From: a virus
Strand: one strand, 5' to 3'
IMG/VR virus record: IMGVR_UViG_3300037137_000261
Coordinates: 1 to 20,024 of that record
DNA: 20,024 nt
Below, one piece after another: positions 5,612-14,594 of this stretch. The notes under the pieces were generated by a model. That model was not told the origin of the DNA and ran no database searches. It was given only the letters and a program-made list of their open reading frames with translations. The translations under genes were made by a program, and so were the position numbers. The number at the start of each line of letters is the position of its first letter. Position 1 is the first letter of the stretch.

Positions 5612-6898
5612 ATGGCTGTCACTCTCGCCCAGGCGTCACTGAACGCCGCGAGCGCCATCGATCGCAACATCATCGACGAGTTCCGCAAGTCGAGCTTCCT
5701 GCTCGACCAGATGCCGTTTGACCAGTCGGTCAACCCGGCCGGCGGCGGCTCCACCCTCGTCTACGGCTACACCCGCCAGACCACGCAGCGCGCCGCGGCC
5801 TTCCGCACGATCAACGCCGAGTACACCCCGACGCAGGTCGAGAAGGCGCAGTACACGGTCAACCTGCGGCCGCTCGGCGGCGCGTTCGAGATCGACCGCG
5901 TGCTCACCGGCATCGGCGCGATCTCCGAGGTGGGCTTCCAGCTCGCCCAGCTGGTCAAGGCGACGAAGGCGTACTTCGCCGACCAGGTCATCAACGGCAA
6001 CGACGCCGTGACGACCAACGGCTTCGACGGGCTCAACCAGGCGCTCATCGGGTCCTCGACCGAAGTGGCCGGGCCGATCCTGGACCTGACCGCCGTCAAC
6101 TCGACGGCGACCGCCCTGACCGCGGTCCAGCGGATCAATGCCTGGCTCGCCAGAATGGACGGCACGCCGCACGCGCTCCTGATGAACGGCGTGGCCAAGT
6201 CCATGATCTCGATGGTCGCCGGCTTCACCGGCCAACTCCGGTCCACGGTCGACGCCTTCGGCGTGGAGCAGGAGTACTTCCGCGGCATCCCGCTCATCGA
6301 CCTGGGCGAGAAGGCCGGCGTCTCCGACCGGGTGATCGGGAACTTCGGAGTCGGCACGAACGAGGTCCAGACGATCACCGCCAGCGGCACCTGGACCAGC
6401 GGCACGTTCCGGCTGGGCTTCCAAGGCGAGTGGACTGCGCCGATCTCCTACGCCGCGACGGCCGCGGCCTGCGTGACCGCGCTCAACCTGCTGTCCAACA
6501 TCGACTCGGGCGACGTAACGGCCACCGGCGCGAACCCGCTCGGCTCGACCCCGCTCGTCATCACCTTCGCCGACGGCGGGCGCTACGACGGCGTGGACGT
6601 GCCGCTGATGCAGATCGACGTGACCAGCATCGTCGGTGCCGACCACGCGGCCGTCGTGACCACGGTCGATGGCGTGCCCAGCACGGACCCGGGCGGGATC
6701 ACCGATCTCTACGCGGTCCGCTTCGGCCTGGACGGGTTCCACGGCGTCGCCGTCCCCGGCCAGCTGATCCAGACCTGGATGCCCGACTTCTCGACCGCCG
6801 GCGCGGTCAAGAAGGGCGAGGTCGAGATGGGACCGGTGGCCGTCGTGCTCAAGTCGAGCAAGGCTGCCGCGGTGCTCCGCAACGTGAAGGTCGCCTGA
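5612..6898 (+). CDS. Major capsid protein, HK97 fold, with an inserted beta domain
   Basis: A 428-residue protein with a strong ribosome binding site (GAAGGAAAGGA). The N-arm region (1-75) ends in FRTINAEYTPTQVEKAQYTVNLRPLGGAFEIDR, a hallmark of HK97-fold capsid proteins of this type. LKAT-like helix segments (110-130), NGVAKSMISMV (192-202) and YFRGIPLIDLGEK (222-233) follow. The fold resumes at TDLYAVRFGLDGFHGVAVPG (364-383) and ends with a typical VGPVAVVLKSSKAAAVLRNVKVA-like strand. Between them, about residues 249-360, lies an extra domain of the type TFxLxFxGxxTxxIxYxATAAxCxxALxxLxNIxxGDVxATG, known as an accessory module in other phage and surface proteins. Without it the protein is of ordinary length. 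Several hundred copies would form the shell, so the insert should decorate every subunit. Confidence 0.93.
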   Translation: MAVTLAQASLNAASAIDRNIIDEFRKSSFLLDQMPFDQSVNPAGGGSTLVYGYTRQTTQRAAAFRTINAEYTPTQVEKAQYTVNLRPLGGAFEIDRVLTGIGAISEVGFQLAQLVKATKAYFADQVINGNDAVTTNGFDGLNQALIGSSTEVAGPILDLTAVNSTATALTAVQRINAWLARMDGTPHALLMNGVAKSMISMVAGFTGQLRSTVDAFGVEQEYFRGIPLIDLGEKAGVSDRVIGNFGVGTNEVQTITASGTWTSGTFRLGFQGEWTAPISYAATAAACVTALNLLSNIDSGDVTATGANPLGSTPLVITFADGGRYDGVDVPLMQIDVTSIVGADHAAVVTTVDGVPSTDPGGITDLYAVRFGLDGFHGVAVPGQLIQTWMPDFSTAGAVKKGEVEMGPVAVVLKSSKAAAVLRNVKVA

Positions 6899-7442: not shown

Positions 7443-9158
7443 GTGGCGACCGCAACCAAGGCTGCCAACGCCAACGCCGTCGTCAGTTCGCCGGGCTGGA
7501 CAACCCCGGCGAACGCCTATGCCGACGACGGGACGGTCGCTGCCTTCTCCGGGGCGAATGGCGTCACGTGGTCAAACGACTACGGCTTCGCTGACTTCTC
7601 GACCTCCGACATCCCCGACGGCTCGACGATCGGCGGCGTCACGATGTCCGCCAACGTGTGGCAGAGCAATGCCACCCGTGGCCTGACGGGCGTTCTGTGC
7701 CGCGATAACGGGGCCGATAGCGGGTCGGAGGCCACCTCGACCTCGACCTCCACCAGCAACGTCGTAACGGCGACTTCGGCGGCCGGGGGGATCACCCTAA
7801 CTGATCTGCGCTCCGCCTCAACCGTGGTCAAGGCCCGCGTCCGCTGCACTCGATCATCGTCTTCCGCGTTCACGGGCTCGCTTGATTACGTCTACATCAC
7901 CGTCACCTATACGGCGCCAACGCTCATCCAGCCTGGCGCCGCCGCTATCACGGTCGGCATGGCTACGCCGACCGTCTTCGCACAGACAACCACCCTGATC
8001 CAACCTGCGGCGGCGGCCTTCTCCATCGCAGGCGCCACGCCGACTATCGGAACGCCGACCACCATCGCGCCGAGCGCAGCCGCTATCACGGTCGGCACCG
8101 CGACGCCTGCGCTCGTCGCCCAGAACTGGCCCAAGGCCGAGCCGGCCGCCGTCGCGGTCACGGTGGCCGGCGCGACCCCGGCGATCGTCGCCCAGAACTG
8201 GCCGATGGTCCAGCCCGCAGCGGCCGCCATCACCGTCGGGACTTCCACGCCGGCAGTCGCCCTGCCGGTGTCCGTGGCCCCAGCCGCCGCAGCGATGGAC
8301 GTGGCGGCCGCGACGCCTGCCGTCTGGCTCCCGGTCTCTCTTGCGCCCGGAGCGGTAGCTGTAGGGATCACGGGCGCGACTCCGACGGTCATGACGTGGA
8401 CGCTCGCCCAGCCCGCGGCCGCGGAGGTCGCCGTCACGACCGCGACCCCGGCGGTCAGCGCCGTGGCGACGACGCTCGTGCAGCCGGGAGCGGCGGAAGT
8501 CACCATCGGGACAGCCACGCCCGCCCTCGCGGCCACGCAGACCTACGTGCCCGCTGCCGCTGCCGTCGCGGTCGCAGGCGCGACACCGTCGGTCGTCGTG
8601 TGGGCGATCGCTCAGCCGGCTGCTGCGGACGTCACCGTCACGGGCGCGACCCCCGCCGTCGCCACGCACCAGCTCGTGCAGCCCGCCGCAGCGGCCGTCA
8701 CCGTCGATACGGCCACGCCCGCCCTGTCCGCCACGCAGACCTATGTCCCGGCGGCTGCGGCCCTGACCATCGGCACGGCCACGCCGACCGTCAACGCCGT
8801 CGCCGTCAGCCTGGTGCAGCCGGCCGCCGCGACCGTGGCCATCGGGACGGCGGCCCCGTCCGTCACGACTACCGATCACCGGGTCCTCCAGATGGCCGCC
8901 GCCGCGGTCATGTTCGCGGGGATGGCCCCGGACGTGGCGGCTACTGAGAACGTGTTCATCGTGCCTGGCCCGCTGGGGCTGACGATCGAGGGCGCGACCC
9001 CCGATGTCACGCTCCCGGTGCCCCCGCCCGGCCTCGCCGCCCGGATGCGACTCTCGGCGGCCTCCGCCGGCCGGGCGTCGATCGACGGGCAACCGTCCAT
9101 GTCGGTCGTCTCCGTCTCCGATGCCCCGGTCATCACGAGCGCGAGGTTCATCCCATGA
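7443..9158 (+). CDS. Repeat-rich virion protein, probable head fibre, 571 aa
   Basis: The start is GTG 7443 with GGGGAGAG upstream. Residues 15-158 form a beta-sandwich-like domain (WTTPANAYADDG, YGFADFSTSDIPDGSTIGGVTMSANVW, and a final SLDYVYITVTYTAP) of the kind found in phage virion proteins with sugar- or lipid-binding-like folds. Residues 161-527 are about 16 degenerate units of 21-24 residues with consensus (L/I)xxPAAAxVTVxxATPxVxA, then a 44-residue tail. Short strands alternating with Ala/Pro turns suggest an elongated beta fibre or solenoid (inference). It sits between the capsid/decoration genes and the head-tail connector, an unusual place for a tail fibre, which suggests attachment to the head. 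A stem-loop overlaps its ribosome site (7423-7443). ATGA overlap with the next gene. Confidence 0.8.
   Translation: MATATKAANANAVVSSPGWTTPANAYADDGTVAAFSGANGVTWSNDYGFADFSTSDIPDGSTIGGVTMSANVWQSNATRGLTGVLCRDNGADSGSEATSTSTSTSNVVTATSAAGGITLTDLRSASTVVKARVRCTRSSSSAFTGSLDYVYITVTYTAPTLIQPGAAAITVGMATPTVFAQTTTLIQPAAAAFSIAGATPTIGTPTTIAPSAAAITVGTATPALVAQNWPKAEPAAVAVTVAGATPAIVAQNWPMVQPAAAAITVGTSTPAVALPVSVAPAAAAMDVAAATPAVWLPVSLAPGAVAVGITGATPTVMTWTLAQPAAAEVAVTTATPAVSAVATTLVQPGAAEVTIGTATPALAATQTYVPAAAAVAVAGATPSVVVWAIAQPAAADVTVTGATPAVATHQLVQPAAAAVTVDTATPALSATQTYVPAAAALTIGTATPTVNAVAVSLVQPAAATVAIGTAAPSVTTTDHRVLQMAAAAVMFAGMAPDVAATENVFIVPGPLGLTIEGATPDVTLPVPPPGLAARMRLSAASAGRASIDGQPSMSVVSVSDAPVITSARFIP
7923..9023 (+). 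repeat. Degenerate in-frame tandem repeats, about 16 units of 63-72 bp
   Basis: The repeats encode units with the core PAAAxVTVxxATP. At DNA level they are mostly diverged, but some blocks stay identical: a 17-nt block at 8115-8131 recurs at 8187-8203 (72 bp apart), and CCACGCAGACCTA at 8533-8545 recurs at 8731-8743. That pattern points to growth by unequal recombination with higher-order units. Copy number may vary between relatives. Confidence 0.85.
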
Positions 9159-9988
9159 GGCACCTCGAGATCGAGGTCACGAACGCCGACGAGCTGCTCG
9201 CCACGGAGGCCTACGGCGCTGGGGCCCTGCTCCGCTGGGAGTCGTCGGCCACAGAGGGCGGCACCTACGCCGAGGGCGGGACGGAGGCGCTCGTCTCCGG
9301 CACCACGCTCTACGACGTCTGGGACGCGGCGGGCATCGAGACGACCTGGTACCGGACGCGGATCAGCGACGCCGGCGGCACGACGTTCTCGGCCTATTCC
9401 GCGCCCCGGTCGCCCGTGACGTCCCTCGTCACGATCGCCGAGGTCCGCGCGCTCATCAACTCCCGCCTCAGCGACGTCGACCTCCAGGCCGTGATCGACC
9501 GCGAGGAGGCGTGGCTCGCCGGGAGGGTCGGTCTCCTCAAAGGAGAGCGAACCGACACCTTCACGCCTGGGATCGGCGACACGCCGCTCTATCTCCGGCG
9601 GCGTGCCGAGTCCGTCGTGCTCACCGACGCCGGCCGGACGCTGGCCGCCTCGGAGTTCCTGTTCACGCCCTCGACCGGCCAGATCCGGCGCATCTGGACC
9701 CCGGACCTGACGAACGAGCCGCCCTGGCGGCAGCTCTACCTCGGCTGGCAGGGCACTGTGACCGCCACATACACCCCCGCCGACGAAGCGGCGGTCAAGC
9801 GCGCAGTGATCGAGCTGGTGCGGATCGCTCTCAATGAGAGCGGCTACCAGTCCGAGCAGATCGGCGACTACGCCTACACGAAGGGCACCGGAGCCGATCG
9901 GCCGAGCCGTGCCGGGTTGGCGCGCTCGATCCTGGTGCGAAGGCCGGCCTACAGCATGCGGATTCACTCCGCGATGGAACCCTCGTGA
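9155..9988 (+). CDS. Head-tail connector protein with N-terminal Fn3-like domain
   Basis: A 277-residue protein. Residues 18-84 look like a fibronectin type III-like module (ALLRWESSATEGGTYAEGG, then TTWYRTRISDAGGTTFSAYS). From residue 91 on, VTIAEVRALINSRLSDVDLQAVIDREEAWLAGRVG is the helical start of a phage head-tail connector (HK97 gp6/SPP1 gp15-like adaptor). It is followed by LYLRRRAESVVLTDAGRTL, WRQLYLGWQGTVTATYTPAD and a closing helix VKRAVIELVRIALNESGYQSEQIGDYAYT. Adaptors form a ring below the portal. Most are about half to two thirds this length, so the Fn3-like part is an addition. The start ATG 9155 overlaps the previous stop (ATGA), and its end overlaps the next gene (GTGA). Confidence 0.82.
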   Translation: MRHLEIEVTNADELLATEAYGAGALLRWESSATEGGTYAEGGTEALVSGTTLYDVWDAAGIETTWYRTRISDAGGTTFSAYSAPRSPVTSLVTIAEVRALINSRLSDVDLQAVIDREEAWLAGRVGLLKGERTDTFTPGIGDTPLYLRRRAESVVLTDAGRTLAASEFLFTPSTGQIRRIWTPDLTNEPPWRQLYLGWQGTVTATYTPADEAAVKRAVIELVRIALNESGYQSEQIGDYAYTKGTGADRPSRAGLARSILVRRPAYSMRIHSAMEPS

Positions 9989-10377
9989 ATACGGTCCTGG
10001 ACACGAACCACCGCTGGCTCGTGTGGTTCCAGCCGATCGCCGGCGACCCCCGCGTGGTGGGCGCCTTCGACGACCGCCGGATCGCAGAGGTATGGGCGTC
10101 CGGCAACTCGCGGCGAACGGCGCGCGAACATCTCGCCTGGCTGCCCACGACGATGGTTCGCGTGATGCGTGCAGGCATCGACGTCCGGCCCGGCCAGGTC
10201 TACCCGGCGAGCGACGAGCTGCTCGTCTGCGGGCCAGAGGTCGTCGGACGCGGGATCGTCGTCGACGTGAGCCAGGATGAGTTTACTGTCGCTGTGCCCG
10301 TCATTCCGCCCGGACTTGCCGATGGACCCTCGCTCTGGGAGATCGGCCACTGTCTCGGACAGCCGGTGCAGGCGTGA
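9985..10377 (+). CDS. Unknown small protein in the connector cluster, 130 aa
   Basis: The start is GTG 9985, overlapping the previous stop as GTGA, and the end overlaps the next GTG the same way, so it is clearly part of the operon. The sequence has WLVWFQPIAGDPRVVGAFDDRRIAEVWASG, a basic helix RRTAREHLAWL and a beta-rich C-terminal half (LLVCGPEVVGRGIVVDVSQDEFTVAVPVI). I do not recognise the family. Its place between connector and head-closure genes suggests a neck or assembly role, but no motif proves it. Confidence 0.7.
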   Translation: MNTVLDTNHRWLVWFQPIAGDPRVVGAFDDRRIAEVWASGNSRRTAREHLAWLPTTMVRVMRAGIDVRPGQVYPASDELLVCGPEVVGRGIVVDVSQDEFTVAVPVIPPGLADGPSLWEIGHCLGQPVQA

Positions 10378-10964
10378 GCTTCGACGACCTGCTCATCCAC
10401 GAGCTCGTCATCTACCGGATGGCCGCGGCCACCTCCGGCGGCGCGGAGACGGCCGGAGGCGCGAACACAACCCTAACGGCCGACACCACGGCAGGGGCGA
10501 CCTCCGTCCATGTCGCATCCGCCGCGGCGATCGCCGCAGGCAACTGGCTCCGGGTCGGGGATACCGGCGAGCGAGAAGCCAGGCAGGTGGCGGTCGGCGG
10601 CGTGGCCGCGCTCGTCGTGACGCTCACCGCACCCCTGGCGCTCGCCCATGACTCCGGCGACCAGGTGCGCGAAGTGGACGACGCCGGCGACGTGACGCTC
10701 GACGAGTACGGGCAGGCGGTCCTCGCGCCAGTGGTCCTAGCCACGGTGGACGGGCGCATCCGGCCGATCACGTCCCGCGAGGTGCCCCTGACGAGTGAGG
10801 CGGGCGCTGCGATCTCGACCCACATCGCCGACATCTACCCGGTGACCTCGCTCACGACGGCGTGCTGGATCGAGTCAGGCGGAGTGCGGTACGACATCCA
10901 CGGCATCAGGGACGCGGCCGGTGCTGGTCATCACCTGACGCTCAATCTCGTGGCGGTGAGCTGA
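10374..10964 (+). CDS. Head closure protein with an inserted beta domain
   Basis: A 196-residue protein from GTG 10374. The N-terminal MSFDDLLIHELVIYR and the part from residue 103 on (GDVTLDEYGQAVLAPVVLATVDGRIRPITSREVPLTSEAG, then TTACWIESGGVRYDIHGIRDAAGAGHHLTLNLVAV) match phage head-closure/head-tail joining proteins (SPP1 gp16-like), including the final 'HH' beta strand. Residues 30-102 are not part of that fold: they form a module GATSVHVASAAAIAAGNWLRVGDTGEREARQV with a final APLALAHDSGDQVREV. The same module appears twice in the tail tube protein of this window. The protein seals the portal channel and joins the tail. It overlaps both neighbours (GTGA, TGATG). Confidence 0.8.
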   Translation: MSFDDLLIHELVIYRMAAATSGGAETAGGANTTLTADTTAGATSVHVASAAAIAAGNWLRVGDTGEREARQVAVGGVAALVVTLTAPLALAHDSGDQVREVDDAGDVTLDEYGQAVLAPVVLATVDGRIRPITSREVPLTSEAGAAISTHIADIYPVTSLTTACWIESGGVRYDIHGIRDAAGAGHHLTLNLVAVS

Positions 10965-11500
10965 TGCCTTCGCCCAAGGCTCCGTCCGAGAAGCTCCTCG
11001 CCCGTCGTGCCGCCAAGGTCGTGCTGAACCACGCCGCGCTCGACGCGATCACGATGGCCGTCGCCGATGGAGCGTTCGACCTGGCACGGGCGGTCATCTT
11101 CGGGGCCGATGCGCCGGACGCGACGCCCTACGGCGAGGGCCTCATCAGAAGCGGCGGCGTGATCGCCTACGTTGATCGGAAGCTCGTCGCCACCGCCGCG
11201 ACGGGACCGGGCATTGACGGCGACCCGACGGTCAAGAAGCCGAGGGCGGCCAAGCTCGGACCGGGGATCGTGGTGATCGGCGGATACGGCTTCCCGGCAA
11301 GGTTCCAGGAGGCCGGCACGATTCACCAGCCGGCACGCCCGTTCGTGACGCCGGAACTCATGTCGACGCTGCCCGATGCCGAAGGGTTCATCCGTTTGGC
11401 CTGCGTCAACCGCAAGGTCATCTCGGCTGGACGCGCCGCCCGGGGCGACACGTTCGCCGCATCGAAGGCGCGGCAGGCTGCGAAGGCGGCCGCCGGATGA
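10964..11500 (+). CDS. HK97 gp10-like neck / tail completion protein
   Basis: The start ATG 10964 is set by a TGATG overlap; it gives 178 residues. An N-terminal helix (LLARRAAKVVLNHAALDAITMAVADGAFDLARAVI) is followed by GGVIAYVDRKLVAT and the family signature GYGFPARFQEAGTIHQPARPFVTPEL (107-132), then a basic Ala-rich C-terminus. HK97 gp10-type proteins lie between head closure and tail terminator genes and help complete the neck or tail. The order here is the usual one. It ends with an ATGA overlap with the next gene. Confidence 0.85.
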   Translation: MPSPKAPSEKLLARRAAKVVLNHAALDAITMAVADGAFDLARAVIFGADAPDATPYGEGLIRSGGVIAYVDRKLVATAATGPGIDGDPTVKKPRAAKLGPGIVVIGGYGFPARFQEAGTIHQPARPFVTPELMSTLPDAEGFIRLACVNRKVISAGRAARGDTFAASKARQAAKAAAG

Positions 11501-11919
11501 GCCTCGTAGACCCCTTGGGCCGCCTCCTCACCGAGATCCGAGACGACGCGACCGTGGCCGCGATCACGACCCGCATCCGTGGCGGCGAGCCGGCCCCGGG
11601 CGACGCGCTGGGCGCTGGCGGCTACCTGCCGTTCGTGGTCCTCACCCGGCTCGGCGGTGCGCGGCTCAAGCGGTGCCCGATCCAGGAGGTCCGCCTGCTG
11701 GCCAAGTGCTACGCGACGACAGCTCCGAACGCGGCGATCCTCGCGGGCGCCGTGTCCGATGCGATCCACGCCAAGGGTCACCGGATCACGGCGGCCGGCG
11801 TGGCGATCTTCGGCTCGTTCGACGACGGCGGGCAGGGTGCGACGCGGGATCCCGACACCCAGCAGTGGCATGAGGACCTCGTGATCCAGGTCAACGCCGG
11901 AACCGAGTTGCTGACATGA
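11497..11919 (+). CDS. Putative tail terminator protein
   Basis: A 140-residue protein. It opens with VDPLGRLLTEIRDDATVAAITTRIRGGEPAPGDALGAGGYLPFVVLTRLGG, has a central LLAKCYATTAPNAAILAGAVSDAIHAKGHRI and ends with WHEDLVIQVNAGTELL. The layout (helix, strand, helix, strands; about 140 aa) and the slot between the gp10-like and tail tube genes are those of siphovirus tail terminators, which form a ring at the head-proximal end of the tail and stop tube growth. The assignment is by gene order and overall pattern rather than a specific motif. ATGA overlaps on both sides. Confidence 0.7.
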   Translation: MSLVDPLGRLLTEIRDDATVAAITTRIRGGEPAPGDALGAGGYLPFVVLTRLGGARLKRCPIQEVRLLAKCYATTAPNAAILAGAVSDAIHAKGHRITAAGVAIFGSFDDGGQGATRDPDTQQWHEDLVIQVNAGTELLT

Positions 11920-12068
11920 GACCGCCGCTCTGGCTCCATGTCGAGATCCTGCCGAAGGTCGCCGGCGAGGACCTGATGATGCGCATCCGGGTCCGCCGCT
12001 GGGCATGGCTCTGGCCGCCCTTCTGGATCGCATTCCTCCGCTGGCGGCGCGAGACGCCTATCGAGTAG
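11916..12068 (+). CDS. Short Trp-rich basic ORF, 50 aa
   Basis: ATG 11916 overlaps the previous stop as ATGA and the frame ends at TAG 12066-12068, giving 50 residues. The product has MRIRVRRWAWLWPPFWIAFLRWRRETP near its end: a Trp-rich hydrophobic stretch of about a dozen residues (30-41) flanked by arginines. It could sit at a membrane or be a small assembly factor. I do not recognise a family. The overlap and the clean frame up to the structured gap 12069-12150 favour a real gene. Codon use matches the neighbours. Confidence 0.6.
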   Translation: MRPPLWLHVEILPKVAGEDLMMRIRVRRWAWLWPPFWIAFLRWRRETPIE

Positions 12069-12083
12069 CCCACCTTCCACCGC

Positions 12084-12130
12084 TCCCGCCCAGGCGGGAA
12101 CGAAACAGTCAACCGGGGCCATGACCCCGG
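12084..12130 (+). promoter_or_regulatory. Two stem-loops upstream of the tail tube gene
   Basis: TCCCGCC (12084-12090) and GGCGGGA (12093-12099) form one stem-loop; CCGGGG (12113-12118) and CCCCGG (12125-12130) form a second with a 6-nt loop. They fill the largest gap of the tail region (12069-12150) just before the ribosome site of the tail tube gene. No U-tract is present. They may process or stabilise the message of this abundant protein, or partly terminate upstream transcription. Confidence 0.5.
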
Positions 12131-12150
12131 GCAGCGAAAGGACAGGAACA

Positions 12151-13179
12151 ATGGCAACCACAGTCGACCCCAATGCCGTCTGGAGCGGCGCTCCCGTAAG
12201 CGTGACCTACGGCGGCGTGGAGATGGGCGCCACCACGAGCAACCCGAAGATCACGCTCGATGTCGAGGCGGGCGCGCCCGCGTTCACAAACGCCGGTGGG
12301 CCGGTCAAGGGCACCCGCGGCATCCGCAAGATCATCCCCTCCATCGAGATCACCCTCAACGAGATTGACGCGCAGCGTTTCGCGTGGGCACTGCCGGGCG
12401 CAACCGCCACCTCGTCTCAGTCTGTTGGCGTGCTCGTCGCCGGACTCGCCACCACGCTCGGGGCCGATCCGATCCTCGGTGCGACGACCATCTGGCTCGC
12501 CAGCGTCGCCACGGTCAATGTCGGCAACTTCATTCGCATCGGGGACACACTGACCGAAGCCCTCTCCGAAGTGGTCCGGGTCGTGACCAAAGGTGCCGGT
12601 GGGTCGGCCGATACAGTCATCGAGAACAGCGCGGGCGGCGGCCTGCTGATCGATCACGGCAACGGCGAGGCGGTCGTCACCTGCCTCGGTACGATCATGG
12701 CGGCTCCGTCTGTGGCTGGCGCCACGAACATCAAGGTAGACGCGGTGACGGGCCTCAGCCTGCTCGCCCCCGGTGACTATGTGCGTATCGGCTACGTCGG
12801 CCATTACGAGACGCGCCTCCTCACCGCGGTCGGCTCCATCGGCCCGTCGGGCACCGGCATCACCTTTGCAACCCCCCTCACCCGCGACCACGGCCTCGAT
12901 GAGTGGGTCGTCAGGGTCGCGGCCATCGGCGGCACCACGATCCGCCCGGTCATTGGTCGGCTCGGAGATGCGACGTACCAGTCGCTCGTCCTGACCGACG
13001 TCGGCGCCGACGGCCGGACGATGATCGTCACCCTGGACAACGCCGCGAGTGCGGAGACACAGGCGCTGGAGTTCAGCGACGACCCGGCCAACCCGCTCGG
13101 GCTGGCACTCAAGCTCACGGGGCACTACGGGGCGGCTACGCCGACCACCGTCCCGATCTCGTTCGTGATCTCGGCTTGA
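12151..13179 (+). CDS. Major tail tube protein with two tandem inserted beta domains
   Basis: The start ATG 12151 is preceded by GCGAAAGGAC; the in-frame ATG at 12121 lies in a hairpin loop and would translate the ribosome site, so it is rejected. The protein has 342 residues. The tube fold is seen in residues 1-95 (VSVTYGGVEMGATTSNPKITLDVEA, RKIIPSIEITLNEIDAQRFAWALPG) and resumes at about 260 (TIRPVIGRLGDATYQSLVLTDVGADGRTMIVTLDNA; final PLGLALKLTGHYG). Between them are two related modules (about 98-178 and 180-258) with GAT(T/N)I near the start, (I/V)RIG in the middle and a DHG near the end. They are similar to each other and to the insert in head closure. Many hexameric rings would stack, so the modules should coat the tail surface (inference). 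Confidence 0.85.
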   Translation: MATTVDPNAVWSGAPVSVTYGGVEMGATTSNPKITLDVEAGAPAFTNAGGPVKGTRGIRKIIPSIEITLNEIDAQRFAWALPGATATSSQSVGVLVAGLATTLGADPILGATTIWLASVATVNVGNFIRIGDTLTEALSEVVRVVTKGAGGSADTVIENSAGGGLLIDHGNGEAVVTCLGTIMAAPSVAGATNIKVDAVTGLSLLAPGDYVRIGYVGHYETRLLTAVGSIGPSGTGITFATPLTRDHGLDEWVVRVAAIGGTTIRPVIGRLGDATYQSLVLTDVGADGRTMIVTLDNAASAETQALEFSDDPANPLGLALKLTGHYGAATPTTVPISFVISA

Positions 13180-13657: not shown

Positions 13658-13917
13658 AGATGCTCTGGCAGGCCGGACAGAAACGTCTCGCTCGGGAAGG
13701 CCGTGAGCGGCTCACCGAGTTGTTCGTCGCTGCCCGAGATGCCGGACTTGACGTGCTAGTGAGCACCGGTCAGGCCAAGCCCAAGGGAGCCTGGCGGCTG
13801 CCGCCCTATGCCCGCCCGGAATCCACGCCGAGCGTCAGGAACCCTGCCGTTCGTGACGCAACCCTCGCGAAGCTCGGGATGATGTTCCCCGGGATGGTCC
13901 GGAGGGGCGACTCGTGA
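13579..13917 (+). CDS. Tail assembly chaperone, frameshift extension (gpT-like part)
   Basis: This -1 frame runs from the proposed slip site to TGA 13915-13917, adding 112 residues to the first 133 of the upstream ORF for a fused product of about 245 residues. It reads ELYEWCLSEWGLDPEAVRSRFDPEQLKMLWQAGQKRLAREGRERLTELF, then KPKGAWRLPPYARPESTPSVRNP and a final MMFPGMVRRGDS. The charged helical character is usual for gpT-like parts. The frame stays open upstream to 13438, but that part is Arg/Pro-rich out-of-frame noise. The stop overlaps the next gene's GTG. Confidence 0.75.
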   Translation, partial: ELYEWCLSEWGLDPEAVRSRFDPEQLKMLWQAGQKRLAREGRERLTELFVAARDAGLDVLVSTGQAKPKGAWRLPPYARPESTPSVRNPAVRDATLAKLGMMFPGMVRRGDS

Positions 13918-14594
13918 GCGGGAGGAAACACGTTGATCTGGATGTCGAGGCCCTGCGCGCCCGCTGGGAGGGTGGCGAGATGCTGGCCGCTCTTGCTGCC
14001 GAGGTCAGCGTGAGTCGGCCCACGCTCTGGAGGCGGATCGGGCGCCCGGACGCGCCCCCCGTGGACTTCGTCACGCGGTCGGCGTTCGGAACGATCGTGC
14101 CGGAACCCGATGTCGCATTCGTGGCATGGGCAGCCGGTTTCTTTGACGGCGAGGGTTGCATCCACGCCGGTTTCGAGACCGCCCCGAAGTACGGACTTCG
14201 AACGCACCTGATGGTGGTTGTGGGACAGACAGTGCCGGGTCCGCTCGTCGCCATCCAAAGTCGCTGGGGCGGATCGCTCAGGGACCAACCGGCGCGCAAC
14301 CCGCGCCACCAGCACCAATGGCACTGGCGACTCATCGGGAAGAACGCCGCCCCGTTCCTCACGGATGTGCTCCCGTATCTGCGCGTCAAGCGCAGGGCGG
14401 CGCTCCTCGCCCTTGACTACATCGCACTCATCCACCCGCATAGCGTGCGCCTGACTGAGGAGGATCATGCGCGCCGCCGTCCGATTGTCGAGGCCCTCCA
14501 GGCCCTGAATGCTGGTACGCCAGCCGCCCGAGAAGCCCGCCGCGTCCGCGCCATTCTGCGCGCCCAGCGGACCACGATCAGGAAGGAGGCCTAG
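13914..14594 (+). CDS. LAGLIDADG-type homing endonuclease
   Basis: A 226-residue protein from GTG 13914 (GTGA overlap; GGAGGGG upstream). Residues 22-42 look like a helix-turn-helix (LAALAAEVSVSRPTLWRRIG). Residues 71-83, AWAAGFFDGEGCI, are a LAGLIDADG motif variant; HLMVVVGQTVPGPL and a second half GKNAAPFLTDVLPYLRVKRRAALLALDYIALI follow the family pattern. With a single motif the active enzyme would be a homodimer. It probably cuts a specific DNA target and spreads its own gene. It interrupts the usual adjacency of chaperone and tape measure genes, and its last codons carry the AAGGAGG that precedes the tape measure frame. Not expected to be part of the virion. Confidence 0.85.
   Translation: MSGRKHVDLDVEALRARWEGGEMLAALAAEVSVSRPTLWRRIGRPDAPPVDFVTRSAFGTIVPEPDVAFVAWAAGFFDGEGCIHAGFETAPKYGLRTHLMVVVGQTVPGPLVAIQSRWGGSLRDQPARNPRHQHQWHWRLIGKNAAPFLTDVLPYLRVKRRAALLALDYIALIHPHSVRLTEEDHARRRPIVEALQALNAGTPAAREARRVRAILRAQRTTIRKEA
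14583..14589 (+). promoter_or_regulatory. Strong Shine-Dalgarno AAGGAGG before the tape measure frame
   Basis: AAGGAGG at 14583-14589 lies inside the last codons of the endonuclease gene. Its ideal 7-nt spacing points at 14597, which is GTC in the tape measure frame, not a standard start. The first standard in-frame start, GTG 14612, is 22 bases from the motif. It therefore bears on which start is used. Confidence 0.6.

Follow-up and report, generated by a model that had tools for sequence, protein, structure and literature searches.

Related optional modules in the head closure and tail tube proteins of an uncultured siphovirus-type phage

The locus, its genes and the probable host

The window analyzed here is the whole stretch of 20,024 bases of an uncultured virus record, and its morphogenesis genes are in siphovirus-type order. 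Putative terminase and portal genes, named from position and sequence, and then the major capsid protein gene precede the adaptor gene (start at 9155), which is followed by the genes for the head closure protein (HCP; 10374), neck (10862), terminator (11497), tail tube (12151), tape measure (14612) and a post-tape-measure protein (16996). Two further ORFs were recorded: one of 571 aa (7443–9158), mostly built from short repeats with the pattern QPAAAAVTVGTATPAV and without a PHROG match, and one directly before the tape measure gene (13914–14594) that by eye is a homing-endonuclease-type candidate.

The HCP (10374–10964, plus strand, 196 aa, GTG start) is a stopper of the SPP1 gp16 type, as indicated by Phage_HCP homologues and by its predicted model, which matched SPP1 gp16 (7z4w_1, TMt 0.65). 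Its host fold comprises residues 1–19 and ~108–196, and is interrupted after the first strand, in the beta1-beta2 loop, by a module here called M1, with a core at residues ~31–107 (nt 10464–10694) and, linkers included (ETAGGANTTL...REVDDAG), an extent of 10446–10694 on the plus strand. The HCPs of four relatives (L001, L004, L006 and L009) are 109–115 aa long and are without exactly the M1 stretch. An earlier note on this DNA had proposed that the host folds continue normally around the module, and this was borne out for the HCP by L004, which shares 70% identity with the window HCP outside the module and has a gap exactly at the module. The L004 protein (109 aa) also matched Pfam Phage_HCP (PF05521) across positions 12–102 of 106, and both it and L028, another module-free homologue, exceeded the family cut-off of 25 bits (31.1 and 28.7 bits, respectively); the window HCP scored 21.7 bits, with a match that begins past the insertion.

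The tail tube protein (12151–13179, plus strand, 342 aa; phrog_885 major tail protein) carries two modules in tandem, M2 just past helix alpha1 (12448–12681, plus strand; 68.5 bits in hmmsearch) and M3 (12688–12936, plus strand; 103.9 bits), with the host fold lying before and after them. Its ORF is open from 12121, and a start there would add 10 residues; the residue numbers given in the earlier note are correct with a start at 12151 (MATTVDPN), as in homologues. The predicted model, poor within the modules and fair for the host fold, has a helix at residues 84–90 followed by the insertion, and its top matches were the tail tubes of Mystique (9n71, first) and YSD1 (6xgr, second). The module-free tail tube of the relative L050 matched the major tail protein family unbroken through the same site. 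A profile search of the window ORFs detected the module in none beyond the HCP and the tail tube.

Two other proteins of the cluster also contain separate domains. The N-terminal ~90 residues of the adaptor (9155–9424 of 9155–9988) form a distinct optional domain, 92% identical in L024, where the core is 38% identical, and absent from L008, L011, L023 and L051, where the core is 77–81% identical; this domain was judged FN3-like by eye, for which Pfam and PDB searches gave no confirmation. In the major capsid protein (5612–6898), C-terminal residues ~252–346 (6365–6668) matched phrog_10909 and phrog_2839 (tail tube and tail sheath), which points to a further domain that capsid and tail proteins have in common, distinct from the module studied here.

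Given that a contig from a Chloroflexi genome bin (L075; JAGXHP010000174.1) encodes a tail tube 75% identical to that of the window, also with two modules, the bacterial host of the phage is probably a member of the Chloroflexota, a binning error of this contig being possible. The same contig encodes a close HCP relative without the module.

Homology and predicted fold of the module

The order of motifs that the earlier note had read in the HCP and in two tail tube segments was present in all three copies, with GATSV, GATTI and GATNI as motif 1 of M1, M2 and M3, respectively, GNWLRVG, GNFIRIG and GDYVRIG as motif 2, and AHD, IDH and RDH as motif 3. Four columns were invariant across 24 modules, two of them being the motif-3 H and an E before it. 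In BLASTP, M1 matched M2 (E = 4e-9) and M3 (E = 2e-6), and the M2–M3 pair had no detectable similarity. Profile-profile alignment with hhalign, which the earlier note had suggested as a check, gave probabilities of 97.2–97.7% for all three pairs. Cross-profile tests, in which the tested class was left out of the profile, gave 70.2 bits for the HCP module against a profile built from tail tube modules only (best of 1000 shuffles, 6.1 bits), and 25.8 and 26.7 bits for the tail tube modules against an HCP-only profile (shuffle maximum, 10.4 bits). A chance resemblance of low-complexity beta segments rich in Ala, Gly, Val and Thr would fit the high-GC, Ala-rich coding of the window and the failure of M2 and M3 to match pairwise, but it is contradicted by the excess of the cross-profile score over its shuffle maximum and by the hhalign probabilities, and we give it almost no credence. 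We conclude from these sequence comparisons that M1, M2 and M3 are homologous, well beyond chance.

The module is predicted to be an all-beta domain of about 75 residues. The model of M1 has six strands, with pLDDT of about 80–93, and those of M2 and M3 have pLDDT of 25–57, so that the fold is confidently predicted for M1 only. The best PDB match of the M1 model was the Mystique tail tube (9n71, rank 1 of the fold search), and the same protein gave the sole significant match when the module profile was run against PDB sequences (9n71_B, E = 3e-4, residues 108–143), a match that is weak and of partial length. Judging by the position of the match, these residues probably belong to domain D1. In sequence searches, no homology of YSD1 to the module was detected. 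Weaker relatives of the module were found in several tail PHROGs, and weak module-like segments of about 22 bits in the head-tail adaptor of an Alicyclobacillus phage (L055:2081–2872, residues 141–206) and in the major capsid protein of a podophage (L054:1254–2453, residues 249–330). A Klebsiella phage major tail protein was also considered as a carrier and rejected, as the module profile did not confirm the match.

Optional presence and movement among relatives

The earlier note had envisaged homologues of both host proteins without the module, and both were found: in the HCPs of 29 non-redundant contigs, the module is present in 14 and absent from 15, and among 25 tail tubes, 15 have two copies, nine have one and one (L050) has none. 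Full-length tail tube and HCP queries gave no matches among 50,697 phage records. On the tree of HCP host sequences, six gains or losses of the module are needed, of which well-supported branches force only two, and two changes of module state are needed on the tail tube tree. The earlier note had called the two carriers unrelated virion proteins, which is incorrect in that gp16-type HCPs share a tail-tube-like fold (PMC9701221), and this common fold would favor the alternative that the segments are universal parts of both families, retained from a common ancestor. Such an ancestry fails to account for the shared module, because the insertion points differ, being located after the first strand in the HCP and after helix alpha1 in the tail tube, and because many relatives are without the module; the module-free forms, in addition, match their family profiles unbroken. 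We hold this alternative, already contradicted by these observations, to be very improbable, and the distribution indicates that the module is a genuine interchangeable accessory part and not a universal part of either the HCP or the tail tube.

Presence of the module in the HCP was independent of copy number in the tail tube (Fisher p = 0.40), and the suggestion of a shared partner for the two proteins is unsupported for that reason. The same independence, together with the six inferred gains or losses, would suit a module that is a recombination hitchhiker of little function, a foldable, boundary-tolerant domain whose spread is due to its acceptance by loops. We regard such a hitchhiker as rather doubtful, given that tail tube modules were on average better conserved than their hosts (57 vs 49% for the first copy, 65 vs 49% for the second) and that in YSD1 the tail tube slot serves for bracing (PMC7385642).

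In the module tree, window copies clustered by host protein and slot and not by genome: M1 grouped with HCP modules, and M2 and M3 with their respective slot clades. Because of this placement, no recent intragenomic copying is visible in the window, and the exchange within this genome that the earlier note had suggested did not find support. Relatives carry the module in further tail proteins encoded after the tape measure gene (L007, L005 and L063). One such protein (L007:10055–10927) has two modules at its end, which group with the tail tube slot-1 and slot-2 clades (support 100/99 and 100/96). Two genes thus have the two-copy array with an identical order of slots, for which copying from the tail tube would be the simplest reading. 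Two different post-tape-measure proteins, L005:10207–10839 and a distal-tail-like protein of L063, each have an HCP-type copy that keeps the HCP linkers, ETxGGA(N/D)TTL...REVD(D/S)AG. The origin pattern of these extra copies is mixed, as far as identities tell: that of L005 is 70% like the HCP module of L008 and 53% like that of its own genome, and that of L063 is closest to the module of its own genome (68%). At the level of sequence, transfer of the module between genes is demonstrated in these relatives.

Movement between phages was approached by comparing module and host identities, which were uncorrelated over 66 tail tube pairs (Spearman −0.03). Modules were 83% identical and hosts 44% in the tail tubes of L002 and L006, and 97% and 64%, respectively, in the HCPs of L019 and L064. 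Such decoupling could partly reflect uniform constraint on the module, and four-fold sites revealed no overall difference (p = 0.49 for the tail tube, 0.14 for the HCP). Exchange is likelier than constraint, with the reservation that synonymous sites do not separate the two overall.

Possible roles and comparison with known systems

The reading that we favor, and consider somewhat probable, is that of a mobile optional module in loops of ring proteins that serves as a peripheral latch bracing hexameric rings and spreads by cassette recombination. The homology of the copies, their insertion at sites that are empty in relatives, the variation in copy number, the further hosts among tail proteins and the similarity to Mystique D1 support it directly, and a surface position, a latch function and recombination as the route are what we infer beyond them. 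Copies of the module would have been grafted into loops of ring proteins along the six-fold axis of head and tail. The tandem copies of the tail tube occupy the loop past helix alpha1, the slot of YSD1 domain 2 and Mystique D1, and because of this slot and the precedent of these two phages they would most likely lie outside the tube as a latch-like brace between neighboring hexamer subunits, a brace that the second copy may widen. The HCP copy sits in the beta1-beta2 loop, a loop that points to the tail in SPP1 gp16 (PMC9701221), and would most likely be an external brace of the stopper ring or head-tail joint; no direct structural precedent was found for a latch role in an HCP, which counts against the latch reading. 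The module and its linkers would travel as a cassette between genes and phages via recombination. Of the earlier note's proposal of a common function on the particle surface, the surface part is plausible, given that Mystique D1, to which the tail tube copies are homologous, is external; the part concerning a shared partner fell away as described above. A more far-reaching form of this reading, in which a single interchangeable brace domain would serve all types of hexameric ring along this axis (stopper, tube and distal tail) and form an outer sleeve, its copy number being adjusted as genes and phages exchange cassettes, seems quite unlikely to us.

Adhesion is the main rival to the brace reading. 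The modules would then be flexible surface adhesins for host or environmental glycans, as has been proposed for the Ig-like domains of tails and capsids, and their number and position would not be structural. Peripheral tail tube domains have been speculated to help adsorption (PMC9022992), optional presence and swapping suit an accessory adhesin, and the Pfam model nearest to the module (best E = 2.9e-4) describes a capsule lyase rider, a domain involved in polysaccharide binding (PMC8822698). However, the rider also stabilizes its enzyme (PMC8822698), the module's closest structural relatives in this tail tube slot act as braces (PMC7385642), and the beta1-beta2 loop of the stopper, at about six copies per particle, is a poor site for an adhesin, so that we view adhesion as possible but on balance unlikely. 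The field has yet to settle the role of peripheral tail tube domains (PMC9022992), and the natural empty-site, one-copy and two-copy variants described here are ready-made tests of it.

Among known systems, ubiquitin E1 enzymes gave weak fold matches to the module (E 0.13–0.28), presumably through their FCCH part, and no Pfam or sequence match to FCCH was obtained. The Rider domain of the Klebsiella phage K1 capsule lyase (PF24149) is a small beta-barrel-like insertion with two three-stranded sheets, and has weak sequence and fold similarity to the module, but sits in a tailspike beta-helix; the module stayed below its gathering cut-off of 27 bits, with 15.5 bits for the window M1 and a best E of 2.9e-4 among 24 modules.

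Promiscuous Ig-like domains of phages were reportedly described by Fraser and colleagues in 2006. These domains (Big_1, Big_2, I-set and FN3) are, as the module is, optional and common to several virion proteins, and they are peripheral, as the module probably is, but the module sits internally in loops in most of its hosts, and no Ig-like family was among its Pfam matches. Ig-like domains occur in five classes of virion protein (PMC9022992), and the stopper ring, in which the module is found, is not among the five given there. Domain promiscuity on phage particles has mainly been known for Ig-like domains; with our results it includes another kind of beta domain and reaches the stopper, the ring by which the portal is closed.

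The closest parallel is with domain 2 of the YSD1 and chi tail tubes and D1 of the Acinetobacter phage Mystique (6xgr, 9n71), which occupy the same slot past helix alpha1 as the tail tube modules and are all-beta and of similar size. YSD1 domain 2 has been placed between alpha1 and beta4 (PMC8718954) and between strands 4 and 5 (PMC7385642), and acts as a latch that wraps and locks adjacent subunits, burying 950 Å2 (PMC7385642); the Mystique tail tube, with its external D1 and core D2, is closely similar in structure to that of YSD1 (PMC12013898). A domain of this type would have two three-stranded sheets; the M1 model has six strands, and the models of M2 and M3 are of low confidence. While YSD1 and Mystique have one fixed copy of the domain, relatives of the window phage have zero, one or two copies there, and the module also occurs in the HCP and in distal tail proteins.
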